In this document: piece by piece, positions 14,115 to 24,131 of the stretch
Position numbering within the stretch: the first letter of the stretch is position 1
Layout: every line of letters begins with the position of its first letter
Origin: Candidatus Omnitrophica bacterium 4484_213
GTDB lineage: Bacteria; Omnitrophota; 4484-213
Reading direction: 5' to 3'
Assembly (NCBI GenBank): GCA_002085025.1
Contig: MZGK01000001.1
Coordinates: 1 to 38,477, forward strand
Length of the DNA: 38,477 bases
Translations under genes and position numbers: made by a program
Notes under the pieces: generated by a model
Database searches by the model: none
Seen by the model: only the letters and a program-made list of their open reading frames with translations
What the model was told of the DNA's origin: nothing

Positions 14115-14610
14115 AAATTCCCACATAAGGCAGATTTCTGAATTTCTCTTCGTAATCCAATCCGTATCCGACAACGAATTTATCGGGAACCTCAAATCCT
14201 AAATAATCTATCTTTACTTTTTGCTTACGGCGAGCAGGTTTATTGAGCAGAGAACAAAGTTTTAAACTCCTTGGCTTTTGTTTTTTTATTTCCTCTTTTA
14301 TTGAATTGATTGTTAAGCCGGTGTCTATAATATCCTCTACCAGCAAAACATCTCTCTTTTTAAGAGAGGGTAAAAAGTCAATCCTTATCTTTCCTGAACT
14401 TTTGTCTCCGGCATAACTTCTCACCTTTAAAAAGTCGCATTCTGCCGGTATCTCCAGGGTCCGCATTAAGTCGGCAAGAAAAACAAACGAACCTTTTAAG
14501 ATCCCCAACAACAATAGATCTTTATTTCTGCAGTCCCAGGAAATTTCCTCCGCCAATTCTTTTACTTTTCTCTTTATTCTTCTTTCGGAGATTAAACTTT
14601 GAATCTTCAC
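14101..14610 (-). CDS. hpt: Hypoxanthine phosphoribosyltransferase
   Basis: LLLGILKGSFVFLADLMR, VLLVEDIIDTGLTI, DKFVVGYGLDYEEKFRNLPYVG. Confidence 0.95.
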   Translation of the reverse strand: MKIQSLISERRIKRKVKELAEEISWDCRNKDLLLLGILKGSFVFLADLMRTLEIPAECDFLKVRSYAGDKSSGKIRIDFLPSLKKRDVLLVEDIIDTGLTINSIKEEIKKQKPRSLKLCSLLNKPARRKQKVKIDYLGFEVPDKFVVGYGLDYEEKFRNLPYVGIYPVK

Positions 14611-15075
14611 TGTTCTAATTCCTCTGCTTTCCTCACCGCCGTCCTAATCGCCTCAGCAAAAATCTGAGCCATTTTCCTCTTTTGGAATACTCTAAAAGCG
14701 GCTTCTGTGGTGCCGCCTTTAGAAGTTACTTTCTTTCGTAACTCTTCGGCATCTCTGCCTTGAGCAAGCATCCTTAAAGAACCCAGTCCTGTTTGAATAG
14801 CTAATCTTTCCGATATTTTCTTTTCTAATCCTGAAGAAACTCCTGCCTTGATTAACTGCTCAACAATATAGAAAAAATAAGCCGGACCGCTCCCGCTTAA
14901 AGCAGTAATTAGATTCAAATATTTTTCTTCTATCTCTATCATCTCTCCCATTGACACCACCCTGCTTACCTCGGGGCCCTATGCGAGAGTTACTTCTAAC
15001 GGGGCCCACTTTTGATTTGAAAAAACTTTCAATGAAGGATGTAGAAATCCCGGCGGCAATGGAGATGAATAATGG

Positions 15076-15103
15076 GCAGTAGGGAGTAGGGAGTAGGCAG
15101 TAG
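15076..15103. repeat. Heptamer repeat gcagtag ggagtag ggagtag gcagtag inside proC
   Basis: Read directly; encodes YCLLPTPYCPL. Confidence 0.95.
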
Positions 15104-15261
15104 GCAATTTCACTCAAAACTTCCTCCATGTCTTGCGGTTTTATTGCCAGAATAACTACATCAGAATTCTTTGCTAATTTAATGTTGCTCTTAATTACAG
15201 AAATATGACATCTTTTTCTAATATAATCCCTTCTTTTTTTACTCTTATCAGAAGCAATTAA

Positions 15262-15296
15262 GCTTTGCTCTCTGCTTTTTGCCCTTTGCCCTTTTA
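15262..15296. repeat. Heptamer repeat gctttgc tctctgc tttttgc cctttgc inside proC
   Basis: Read directly; encodes KGQRAKSREQS just after the Rossmann GxGxxG. Confidence 0.93.
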
Positions 15297-15338
15297 TAAT
15301 TGCCTCTCCCATATTTCCACAGCCAATAATTCCGATTT

Positions 15339-15578
15339 TCATAGAACCCCTTGTTTAGTGAAAATGTTTTTTACTGCGGGAGAAACTTGCGCTCCCTTGC
15401 TTAACCAATAAACTGCCCTTTCCTTATCTACCTTTGCTAAAGGTGGGTTGTGTAGAACATTATACTCCCCGATTCTTTCAATAAACTTTCCATCGCGGGG
15501 TGCCAGCGAATCACAAACCACAATGCGATAAAAAGGGTTTTTCTTTTTTCCTATCCGCGTAAGACGAATTTTTAGCAT
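15339..15578 (-). CDS. rpsP: 30S ribosomal protein S16
   Basis: LKIRLTRIGKKKNPFYRIVVCDSLAPRDGKFIERIGEYNV. Confidence 0.97.
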   Translation of the reverse strand: MLKIRLTRIGKKKNPFYRIVVCDSLAPRDGKFIERIGEYNVLHNPPLAKVDKERAVYWLSKGAQVSPAVKNIFTKQGVL

Positions 15579-17714: not shown

Positions 17715-18029
17715 TTATCTAAAAATTATCACCAACAAGACTAAAATAATTACCGCTGAAAAAATATACAAATTATTGAAATACCAAAAATCGGCAAGCC
17801 TCTCTGAAAGTGCTGATTTCTCAGGAGGCTGATCTAACCAATATGTCTTTCTTATTTTTCTTTCTAAATGACTCCTTAAAACATCGAGGTCCTCTTTTTT
17901 AAATCTTAAATAAGTGCCTCCTATTCTATAGGGAATAATTTTTTTCTGGCGAATCAGTTTTTTTAACTCCTGTTTGGTTATTCCTAAATATTCTAAAGAT
18001 TGATTAAAGCTCAATAACCCGCTGGGCAT
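17715..18029 (-). CDS. Excisionase/MerR-type HTH protein with a C-terminal transmembrane anchor
   Basis: LSFNQSLEYLGITKQELKKLIRQKKIIPYRIGGTYLRFKKEDLDVL (HTH_17-like); C-terminal LYIFSAVIILVLLVIIFR hydrophobic helix. Confidence 0.8.
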   Translation of the reverse strand: MPSGLLSFNQSLEYLGITKQELKKLIRQKKIIPYRIGGTYLRFKKEDLDVLRSHLERKIRKTYWLDQPPEKSALSERLADFWYFNNLYIFSAVIILVLLVIIFR

Positions 18030-18066
18030 CTTAATTCAACTTTGGCTAAGCCAAAGTTGAGAAACA

Positions 18067-18179
18067 CCAAATCCCAAGCACCAAATTACAATACCAAAAC
18101 AACTCCTTAAAAGCATTCTTTTGTCATTCTTTGTTTGGGTCATTGGGATTTCGGTCATTGTGATTTGTTTGGGATTTGG
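18067..18179. repeat. Long imperfect hairpin repeat (CCAAATCCCAA ... TTGGGATTTGG)
   Basis: 18067-18095 ccaaatcccaagcaccaaattacaatacc versus the reverse complement of 18153-18179, ccaaatcccaaacaaatcacaatgacc. Confidence 0.85.
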
Positions 18180-18220
18180 ATATTGGAATTTCTCATTCAG
18201 CACTGTAAGTGCTGGATGAC

Positions 18221-18760
18221 TTATACCCCTGCTTTCTCCTCGCTTACCCATTTATCAATTCTCTCTTTCTCAAATACCCATTCGCCATTCTTCCTTACTG
18301 CCGGAATCTTTTTGTTCACCGCCCATTTTTCGACTACATTCAGGTCTAACTCTAAATATTCAGCCAACTCCTTTAAACTCATTAGTTTCTCATTTTTAAA
18401 AGTTTCCTTTTCTGGAAAATCAAACAACATCTGACATCTGCCCTGGAGAATTCCACCCTCATCAATAGAGACAACAGGCGTCTGCACATCGCCGTTTACC
18501 TGTCCCGAGGATAAAATTTTAAGCTTCTTACTTGCCTTCACATTGCCGGTGAGCTTTCCGGCAACACTAATCTCTTCTCCGTTAATCCCGGCATTGACTA
18601 CTGCCTTTTCGCCAATAACCAATCTTCCTTTGGTAGTTAGATTCCCTTTAAACTCTCCATTGATACGCAAGTTCACAGGGTCATTGAAAGAAAGATTACC
18701 CTCCATATTGGCAGTGATGTCCAAAAATCTTTCCTCTTCTTCTTTCTCTCTCTTTCTCAT
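18221..18760 (-). CDS. Bactofilin (polymer-forming cytoskeletal protein) fused to an excisionase/MerR-type HTH domain
   Basis: Bactofilin beta-helix repeats NLRINGEFKGNLTTKGRLVIGEKAVVNAGINGEEISVAGKLTGNVKASKKLKILSSGQVNGDVQTPVVSIDEGGILQG, then MSLKELAEYLELDLNVVEKWAVNKKIPAVRKNGEWVFEKERIDKWV. Confidence 0.87.
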   Translation of the reverse strand: MRKREKEEEERFLDITANMEGNLSFNDPVNLRINGEFKGNLTTKGRLVIGEKAVVNAGINGEEISVAGKLTGNVKASKKLKILSSGQVNGDVQTPVVSIDEGGILQGRCQMLFDFPEKETFKNEKLMSLKELAEYLELDLNVVEKWAVNKKIPAVRKNGEWVFEKERIDKWVSEEKAGV

Positions 18761-19031: not shown

Positions 19032-20945
19032 TCAAACATCCTTCTTTTTAGAGGATGTTTCCTCATCCACTACCTCGGCATCAACAACATTTTCCTTCTT
19101 CCCGGATTTATCTTCGCTTTGCTGAGTAGTAGATTGCTGAGAAGCTTTCTTATACAACTCCTCAGCTAACTTGTGCGAAGCCTGAGTAAGCTCTTCAGTG
19201 GTTTTATTTATCTTATCTATATCATCGCTTTTGAGAGCCTCCCTTGCCTTTTTTATTGCCGTTTCTATCTTTTCCTTATCGGCCGGAGAAACCTTATCCC
19301 CTGCTTCCTTAAGGGACTTTTCACTTGTATAAATCAAACTATCCAGGCGATTTCTTGCCTCAATTAAGCCTTTTTTCTTCTCATCCTCCGCAGCGTGGGC
19401 CTCGGCTTCCTTCTTCATTCTCTCTATCTCTTCTTTAGATAACCCGCTGGAGGATTCGATGCGAATCTTTTGCTCCTTGCCGGTACCCAAATCCTTTGCC
19501 GAAACATGCATAATCCCATTGGCATCGATATCAAAACTCACCTCAATCTGGGGAATCCCGCGGGGAGCGGGGGGAATACCAATCAGGTCAAATCTACCCA
19601 GGGTGCGATTATCAGCGGCCATCGGGCGCTCCCCCTGCAAGACATGGATAGAAACAGCGGTCTGGTTATCAGCGGCGGTAGAGAATATCTGGGTTTTCTT
19701 GGTGGGGATGGTGGTATTTTTTTCTATTAATTTAGTAAACACTCCACCTAGGGTCTCTATGCCTAAAGAGAGAGGTGTAACATCAAGCAAAAGTACATCC
19801 TTAACCCCGGCGTCTCCGGCAAGAACTCCGCCCTGAATAGCCGCCCCTACGGCTACTACCTCATCGGGATTCACTCCCTTATGCGGCTCTTTATGGAAGA
19901 GCCTTTTGGCTACCTCCTGAACCGCCGGCATTCTGGTCTGTCCGCCTACTAAGATTACCTCATTAATATCATCAGCAGAAAGTTTGGCATCGGCTAATGC
20001 CTGCTTGCACGGTTCCACTGTTCTTTCAATCAAATCGCTGACTAACTGCTCTAATTTTGCCCGCGTTAATGTAAGCGTTAGATGCTTAGGCCCGCTGCTA
20101 TCGGCAGTAATAAAGGGAAGGTTGATATCGGTCTGCATTGTAGTAGAGAGTTCGCATTTTGCTTTCTCAGCCGCTTCTTTCAAGCGCTGCAAAGCCATTT
20201 TATCTTCGCGTAAATCTATCCCCTCCTGCTTTTTAAATTCCTCAGCCAACCAATCGATAACCATCTGGTCGAAGTTATCACCACCTAAATGGGTATCCCC
20301 ATTTGTTGCCTTTACCTCAAAAACACCCTCGCCAATCTCTAAAATAGAAATATCAAACGTTCCGCCGCCTAAATCAAATACGGCAATCTTCTCGTTCTTC
20401 TTTTTATCCAAACCATAGGCCAAAGAAGCCGCCGTAGGTTCGTTGATAATTCGCAAAACCTCAAGCCCTGCAATCTCGCCAGCGTCCTTGGTGGCTTGAC
20501 GTTGACTATCATTAAAATATGCCGGCACTGTAATTACTGCCTTGGTTACTTTGCTGCCTAAGTAACTCTCAGCGGTCTCTTTCATCTTCTGGAGGATAAA
20601 GGCGGAAATCTCGGGAGGGGTATATTCCTTATCCCTCGCCTTTACCTTTACATTCCCTTTATTGTCTTCAACAATCTTATAAGGAACTATCTTCTCCTCT
20701 TCGGCCACCTCCCTGTGTCTTCTGCCCATAAACCTTTTGATAGAAAAGACCGTATTTTCGGAGTTGGTAATTGCCTGCCTCTTGGCAATCTGGCCAACTA
20801 ATATCTCTCCTGTTTTAGGAAAAGCCACTACCGAAGGGGTTGTGCGTAAACCCTCGGCATTGGGAATTACCACTGGCTTTCCTCCCTCTAAAACCGCAAC
20901 ACAAGAATTTGTTGTCCCTAAATCAATACCGATTACCTTACTCAT
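19032..20945 (-). CDS. dnaK: Molecular chaperone DnaK (Hsp70)
   Basis: [93 protein letters not shown]. Start at 20945 preferred over 20975. Confidence 0.99.
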
Positions 20946-21089
20946 TTTTTGATTCCCTCCTTTCCTTTCTCGCAAAGCGAGCCCTGAACCGTTCTGGTGC
21001 AGGGCGAGAGCCGAAGCCCGGCGAAGCCTTAGCGTAGACGGGCTGAGGATAGTCCCGACGAAGTCGGGACGCTTTTATTTCCGAAGATT

Positions 21090-23077: not shown

Positions 23078-24131
23078 TTAACAGGGTGAATTTCTCAATA
23101 GTTCTCTTGCCGCCTCTAATACCTCTTCTGGTTTAACCGAATTCATAGAGGAACCATTTTTTATTACTCTGCTTTTCTTGCCCAAAGGCTTAAATCTCTG
23201 GACATCTGTAGGTCCAAAAATTCCAATAGTAGGAGTTCTTAATAAGCTTGCTATCTGCATCGGGGCGCTGTCGTTACCGATAAAAAGAGCGCATATCTTC
23301 AACAACACAGCCAGTTCTTTTAAATCTATCTCGCCATCTAATCGCAAAGGCTCCTCTGCAGTTAAAGAAATAACCTCATTAATAACTCCCTTTTCTTCCT
23401 CACCGCCGACTAAAATTACCTTTCCTTGCTCTGTCAACTTATCGACTAAACAGGCAAAGTTCTCTGGGCCCCATCTTTTTTTCTTGTCTCTTGCCCGGGG
23501 GCTAAAACAATCAGTTTGTCTTCTGGGTAAATCCCCTTGTCTGCGAGCAACTCATCTATTCTTCTCTCCTCAACAGAGCTAATTCCCAAGGGATTGCCAA
23601 AAGAAAAATTAGTAACCCCTGTTAGAAAAGGCGGGGCTTTAACCCCGTCCTTTCTTAATAAGCCCCGCACCAAGAATTGGTGCGGGGTAAACATCCTTTC
23701 CCCGCCCACGGAGGGGTAGGGCTTTCTAACGGGGTAAAATCTACGCCACTGAGTTTCAACTTACAGAGATGAAAATCCCTTTTGTGCCTGATTTGTTCAG
23801 GTACTCTAAACAACAAAGGAGTGTGGTACCTTGCCCCGATAAGCAGAGGAAAAAGGCTATGTCGGAGGTCAACTATCAAATCATATTTTTCCTTTCTCAA
23901 CTTTAAAACCAATTTAATCTTCTCCGACAAAATAATTCTCTTGTCGTAAATAATCGTTTGACGAAAATAAGGAATTTTCCTAAAGAGTCCTTGCGCCCGC
24001 GGGCCTACCAGAACATCCAATTGGGCAGAAGGGAATCTCTCTTTTAATACCAAAGCCACGGGAAGCGTTAAAACCGCATCTCCGATGTTGGTGAGAGTGG
24101 TTAAAAGAATTTTGCGAATGTTCTTTAACAT
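23078..24131 (-). pseudogene. Second GT9 heptosyltransferase, split into three ORFs by an inserted palindromic element and a separate 1-nt frameshift
   Basis: MLKNIRKILLTTLTNIGDAVLTLPVALVLKERFPSAQLDVLVG (23655-24131); VTNFSFGNPLGISSVEERRID...LIVLAPG (23446-23709); GKVILVGGEEE...LFIGNDSAPMQIASLLRTPTIGIFGPTDVQRFKPLG (23078-23437). Confidence 0.87.
23613..23736. mobile_element. About 124-bp MITE-like palindromic element inserted in the heptosyltransferase gene
   Basis: Ends taacccctgttagaaa (23613-23628) / tttctaacggggta (23723-23736); internal hairpins ggcggggctttaaccccgtc and gccccgcaccaagaattggtgcggggt. Confidence 0.7.

Follow-up and report, generated by a model that had tools for sequence, protein, structure and literature searches.

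A bactofilin–HTH_17 fusion and a neighbouring HTH_17 membrane protein: a conserved two-gene module of Omnitrophota

Bactofilins are filament builders in bacteria, and growth of the cell wall, positioning of the chromosome and motility are all organised by them; to our knowledge, the way in which they attach to the membrane is understood in few species. Omnitrophota is an uncultured phylum with almost no pure cultures, and many of its members are ultra-small. In the stretch of DNA analysed here (hereinafter the window; 38,477 nucleotides from Candidatus Omnitrophica bacterium 4484_213, contig MZGK01000001.1), a gene for a bactofilin that is followed by a helix-turn-helix (HTH) domain, here called bac, lies beside a gene for a small membrane protein with an HTH of the same class, here called tm. 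The question raised by this locus is what an HTH does at the end of a bactofilin, that is, whether it is a "DNA-reading head", as the original prediction put it, or has been turned to another use at the membrane. The analysis below indicates that bac and tm are a conserved, undescribed two-gene module of Omnitrophota, conceivably a membrane tether of some kind; judging from the sequences, a scaffold of filament and membrane is more plausible than a DNA reader.

Table 1. Features of the bac–tm locus (positions in the window; residues in the respective protein).
Feature	Position	Strand	Length or residues	Basis or remark
bac, bactofilin–HTH_17 fusion gene	18221..18760	(-)	179 aa	ORF, Pfam, AlphaFold2, phylum survey
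Bactofilin beta-helix domain of bac	18431..18715	(-)	aa 16-110	PF04519; alignment to 2n3d and 6ria; fold match 6rib, 2n3d
Disordered linker of bac, between beta-helix and wHTH	18392..18421	(-)	aa 114-123	pLDDT <50
C-terminal HTH_17/MerR-like winged HTH (wHTH) of bac	18239..18385	(-)	aa 126-174	PF12728; charge comparison; fold matches BldC, RdfS, RacA
Intergenic spacer with inverted repeats	18030..18220	(.)		Lineage-specific, outside the conserved module
tm, HTH_17–TM gene	17715..18029	(-)	104 aa	ORF, Pfam, synteny, survey
HTH_17 wHTH of tm	17883..18017	(-)	aa 5-49	Basic wing, R42 invariant; fold matches RacA, Xis, BldC, CbpM, DafA
Juxtamembrane motif DFWYFNNLYI of tm	17763..17792	(-)	aa 80-89	Family consensus DFxYFNDFYI
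C-terminal transmembrane (TM) helix of tm	17721..17774	(-)	aa 86-103	AlphaFold2 helix pLDDT 94; hydropathy

Domain order and fold of the two proteins

bac is a single open reading frame, and tm is the next gene 3′ of it in the direction of transcription, on the same strand. In the Pfam search, the N-terminal part of bac matched PF04519 (Bactofilin) with 88.3 bits (cut-off 27.9) and its C-terminal part matched PF12728 (HTH_17) with 37.0 bits, and tm matched HTH_17 with 33.4 bits (cut-off 27.0 in both cases), so that all three matches lie above the curated cut-offs. The domain order read in the original prediction, i.e., a bactofilin followed by an HTH in the one gene, and the same HTH class followed by a C-terminal TM helix in the other, was thereby borne out, and AlphaFold2 agrees for both proteins, together with hydropathy for tm. 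Both proteins also match the NCBIfam profile 'excise' (TIGR01764), below its curated cut-off. MADS1, an HTH protein of methylation-associated anti-phage defence (NF047737), was considered and rejected, the scores being 44 and 19.6 bits against a cut-off of 80.

The AlphaFold2 models were built on 81-sequence alignments. The bac model consists of a beta-helix (aa 13-106, pLDDT 89-98) and a wHTH (aa 126-177, pLDDT mostly 85-90), and the linker between them is shorter in some families. The tm model consists of a wHTH, a long helix, and then the juxtamembrane segment and C-terminal TM helix, after which the chain ends. Strong hydrophobicity of this C-terminal stretch is shared by 160 of 162 homologues, and D80, F81, Y88 and I89 are nearly invariant in the family. 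According to Foldseek, the beta-helix of bac matches the bactofilin of T. thermophilus and BacA of Caulobacter (TM-score by target length 0.84 against 2n3d, and 0.72 against 6rib; E-values only 0.004-0.1), and the best match of tm is RacA bound to DNA (5i44), followed by phage Xis and BldC, with CbpM and DafA (3ucs, 9dvi) also among the matches. The E-values are modest (best 0.004), which is to be expected for such small domains.

In the alignment to 2n3d and 6ria, L105 of bac falls on the polymerisation residues F130 of BacA and F105 of the T. thermophilus bactofilin, and this column is L, F, I, M or V in 162 of 162 sequences. Since the polymer-interface position is hydrophobic throughout, filament formation is likely. 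That is to say, bac shares with these two bactofilins the PF04519 profile, the beta-helix fold and the hydrophobic interface residue, and is a bactofilin by all three, but in a new domain arrangement: it differs from them in its C-terminal wHTH and dedicated TM partner gene, and in an N-terminal targeting motif that mostly lacks the hydrophobic residue. No publication treating bactofilin together with Omnitrophota was found in the literature searched, bactofilins go unmentioned in the principal genome survey of Omnitrophota, and by title and abstract none of the papers on bactofilin and helix-turn-helix in that literature is about a bactofilin–HTH_17 fusion.

Distribution and gene order in Omnitrophota

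For the presence counts, 384 Omnitrophota genomes were evenly drawn, and the fusion was counted at E≤1e-25 over its full length; 259 of these genomes were classed as good (≥90% complete and ≤5% contaminated). Full-length bac was found in 326 genomes (226 of the good ones), nearly always as a single copy, and tm in 342 (236 of the good ones). When the lists were compared by hand, both genes were present in 321 genomes, bac only in 5 (in two of which it lies at a contig edge), tm only in 21 and neither in 37, which gives a Fisher p of 4e-31, uncorrected for phylogeny. The best 80 of 265 relatives in the genome scan were all Candidatus Omnitrophota, including Ca. Velamenicoccus archaeovorus. On plasmids no match spanned 80% of the query bac, and a full fusion is therefore absent from them. 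Since the bactofilin profile search in 58 relatives returned one clear bactofilin without HTH, the fused form is practically the only bactofilin of the phylum. That one is a second bactofilin, a 157-aa frame, in G056, the source genome of L044 (contig C43:7143-7496). MreB was present in 31 of 32 Omnitrophota genomes tested, with or without bac, so that bac does not stand in for an absent MreB.

In all 248 fusion loci (162 distinct pairs), tm directly follows bac on the same strand as the next conserved gene. The median gap is 26 bp, and the two genes often lie less than about 20 bp apart; they overlap in 12% of the loci, and in two of the 248 by about 100 bp. With a fusion spread across the phylum (326/384) and tm behind bac every time (248/248), chance is excluded for the observation. 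The two results that the original prediction had named as speaking against it were a lack of HTH_17 matches and a pair not conserved in relatives; matches were found in both proteins and the pair is conserved, and its suggestion of an undescribed system holds as well, in that no description of this conserved module of a bactofilin and a membrane HTH protein was found in the literature searched. The gap of 191 bp in the window is wider than typical. Partial copies of this spacer, 71-97% identical, occur on several other contigs of the window's genome, and it resembles a dispersed palindromic element.

The wider surroundings differ between families. In many of them, gatC-gatA-gatB, an S41 protease with a PDZ domain, a divergent polysaccharide deacetylase, tsaD and mgtC are located upstream of the pair, and a larB-like gene downstream; in other families, acpS, a YdjC-like gene and surE lie downstream, and in the window's family dnaK lies upstream. 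Since bac and tm are kept together while these wider neighbours differ, the pair is a stable unit. It occupies conserved housekeeping neighbourhoods, and the idea of a mobile-element excisionase was rejected on this ground. The dnaK gene of the window (19032-20975(-)) adjoins the pair upstream, an arrangement seen among the loci examined only in the window's family; for this reason a chaperone link, to which this neighbour and the CbpM/DafA fold matches might point, was set aside as probably a coincidence. Two other genes in the window are broken. A pyrroline-5-carboxylate-reductase-like gene, named from its sequence (14607-15342(-)), is split into the overlapping frames 14860-15342 and 14607-14960, by a frameshift or an assembly error; a glycosyltransferase-9/heptosyltransferase-like gene, named from its sequence and the cluster it forms with intact relatives (23078-24131(-)), lies in three frames, as a pseudogene or through indel errors.

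In some lineages tm occurs without bac. It has kept its position in the chromosome, and its wing is intact, in family f5, genus g9 (G010, G022, G080, G346) and in G250, and in a more diverged form in family f14 (G030, G158), in G162 and probably in G132. The diverged copy of G012 lacks the basic residues of the wing, and G081 has a 64-aa version in which the HTH is gone and just the DFxYFxxYYI-TM part is left. Among the loci, L294, L296, L298, L302, L304, L305, L326 and L327 carry tm at the ancestral place (tsaD-[mgtC]-tm-larB or polA) with bac gone, and the wing is intact in several. At L312:1495-1689(-), beside a plsX-like gene (named from sequence), there is a 64-aa ORF with the motif DFFYFYDYYI and a TM helix but no HTH, possibly a minimal form of tm. 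The most durable element of the module is thus the membrane motif, rather than the bactofilin, and since tm survives without bac, it must have a role beyond anchoring bac.

Charge and recognition surface of the two HTH domains

To weigh DNA binding, 162 bac HTHs and 162 tm HTHs were set against 40 stand-alone HTH_17 proteins from Omnitrophota, whose DNA binding is assumed from family membership; these controls are a conservative contrast because they were chosen for their resemblance to the bac HTH. The mean net charge of the domain is +3.7 in the controls (sd 1.9, none negative), -3.0 in bac (sd 1.7, 92% negative) and +1.0 in tm (sd 2.2). The T-I/V-Y-R/K recognition motif of the controls is absent from the bac HTH, which instead carries conserved acids at five positions of the turn, the recognition helix and the wing, with the signature YLEV(D/E). 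Position 137 is E in 94% of the bac family, where 60% of the controls have K or R; position 139 is D or E in 97%; the position of K145 is acidic in 81% (R or K in 60% of the controls), and that of K157, in the wing, in 85% (V or I in the controls). The usual DNA-binding signature has thus been lost across the family, and since the domain is acidic, its motif gone and its acids conserved, the comparison argues that the bac HTH is, by family, mostly a protein-binding module. On this point the original prediction of a DNA-reading head is not supported for the family. The window's own copy is an outlier, about neutral in this genus (net +1) and with K at two of the five acid positions, and the argument against DNA binding is therefore weaker for the window species.

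The HTH of tm is different. Its wing is basic, with R42 in 162 of 162 sequences and K or R at position 44 in 95%, and the domain reaches net +6 in the window genus; its recognition helix starts with acids, with E where the controls have T or a neutral residue, and has neither a conserved R, K or Y nor the control motif. These features bear on the main rival to the adaptor model set out below, namely a tether between DNA and the membrane, in which one or both HTHs would bind DNA and the filament together with tm would fasten the chromosome to the membrane, in the manner of RacA and DivIVA in Bacillus. The basic wing fits such a tether, as do the scores of both HTHs above the HTH_17 cut-off and the leading fold matches of tm. 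A Myxococcus bactofilin, moreover, relies on PadC, a DNA-associated adaptor, to position ParABS (PMC5703909), and an HTH of tm that stays intact where bac is lost is what would be expected if its partner were something other than bac. Against the tether stand the acidic bac HTH without its recognition motif, the atypical recognition helix of tm, and the loss of the wing basics in one divergent lineage (G012) and of the whole HTH in another (G081). Overall, a DNA tether appears unlikely, though it deserves to be kept in sight. Among known systems, RacA-DivIVA is alike in linking a MerR-type wHTH to a membrane-associated structure (5i44; PMC6593407), but RacA binds DNA, which the sequences disfavour for bac; BacNOP-PadC of Myxococcus is alike in tying a bactofilin scaffold to a protein with a possible HTH, but PadC, which is ParB-like, is a protein of its own, held by a disordered tail of BacP (PMC5703909).

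A proposed filament coupled to the membrane

The preferred reading is the adaptor model, i.e., a phylum-specific scaffold made up of a bactofilin polymer, wHTH docking heads and an HTH-TM membrane adaptor, in which polymerisation, interaction and docking are deduced from sequence, models and analogy; a probability of roughly 0.48, a little short of even, is given to it. The bactofilin domain of bac would build a filament at the inner face of the cytoplasmic membrane, and its C-terminal wHTH would be a repurposed DNA-binding fold acting as a protein-docking head. tm would be a membrane-resident adaptor whose cytosolic wHTH couples the filament to the membrane, directly or via a shared client, and its conserved DFxYFNDFYI-TM segment may bind some membrane target that is linked to the filament in this way. 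A role in cell-wall or division patterning is conceivable for the whole. The model draws on the adjacency and co-occurrence of bac and tm, on the hydrophobic interface position, on the acidic bac HTH without the control motif, on the fused form as almost the sole bactofilin of the phylum, and on the targeting peptide and the precedents described next.

The usual membrane targeting of bactofilins relies on an N-terminal MFSKKKK-like peptide, a motif that is not universal among them (PMC12448750). In bac, position 2 is F in 4 of 162 sequences and hydrophobic in 26%, with a mean of 3.2 basic residues in positions 2-8. The most straightforward candidate for the missing anchor is tm, a dedicated membrane protein that is encoded by the adjacent gene and carries a domain of like fold. 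Such a pair might work like RodZ with MreB, or as PbpC does for BacA: this client sits in the membrane, binds the bactofilin by its cytosolic part and can take over from the membrane-targeting peptide (PMC12448750). PbpC is a cell-wall synthase that binds through a short peptide, while tm has no enzyme domain. RodZ has a layout like that of tm: it is membrane-bound, carries an HTH and attaches to the MreB polymer of the cytoskeleton via its cytosolic domain (PMC6052060). RodZ has a large periplasmic domain, whereas tm is an HTH_17 protein with nothing after the TM helix, so that its domain content sets tm apart from RodZ. The HTH of RodZ, moreover, belongs to HTH_25, another family than that of tm. 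The reuse of a MerR-type wHTH for protein binding is known from CbpM, which, like DafA, shares the wHTH of MerR fold with the present proteins (3ucs, 9dvi; PMC4063869); both act on chaperone systems and, unlike tm, have no TM helix.

Several observations weigh against the adaptor. The N-terminal basic stretch of bac could bind membranes by itself, and the persistence of tm with an intact HTH in lineages without bac counts against a simple anchor. Direct coupling analysis of 162 concatenated pairs (Neff 133), a depth too low for the purpose, gave inter-protein couplings among the top 60 no more often than chance. The charge compensation between bac and tm is weak (rho 0.17, p 0.03, uncorrected for phylogeny), and tm is more positive than bac in 93% of true pairs against 90% of shuffled ones, within the shuffled range and hence not pair-specific.

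These results also bear on two further explanations. The two proteins might be independent, their adjacency being an old gene order that has been little rearranged, with bac on the membrane via its own basic N-terminus. The negative coupling analysis and the survival of tm without bac agree with this, and the neighbours tsaD, mgtC and larB are likewise conserved in many families; yet the pair stays together whether dnaK or gatCAB-ctpA-tsaD-mgtC comes before it or acpS after it, tm is present in 321 of the 326 genomes with bac, and the two proteins share a domain type, which makes independence quite improbable. Least probable of all is that tm is a membrane-bound one-component regulator, i.e., a transcription factor set at the membrane with bac as its spatial modulator or antagonist, for although tm is kept at the same locus without bac, and an acidic bac HTH beside a more basic one could be a decoy, tm has no sensory domain and an atypical recognition helix, the housekeeping neighbourhood with its changing partners offers no obvious regulon, and the charge contrast is not specific to true pairs.

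If the adaptor model is right, a bolder claim may follow from it, namely that the pair embodies a new coupling principle, in which wHTHs have been turned from DNA readers into a docking pair between a bactofilin filament and a minimal TM protein, and an uncultured phylum has retained them as core machinery; this is doubtful at present. In its stronger version, the HTH of tm would still bind DNA, so that the same surface could be held by the filament or by the chromosome.

In summary, most of Omnitrophota appears to have swapped the usual bactofilin for a form in which a DNA-binding fold is reused and which has a membrane partner of its own. The bac–tm pair offers a definite and testable example of a wHTH domain that may have been turned into a cytoskeletal connector, and it is one of the few candidate handles on the cell organisation of this phylum.
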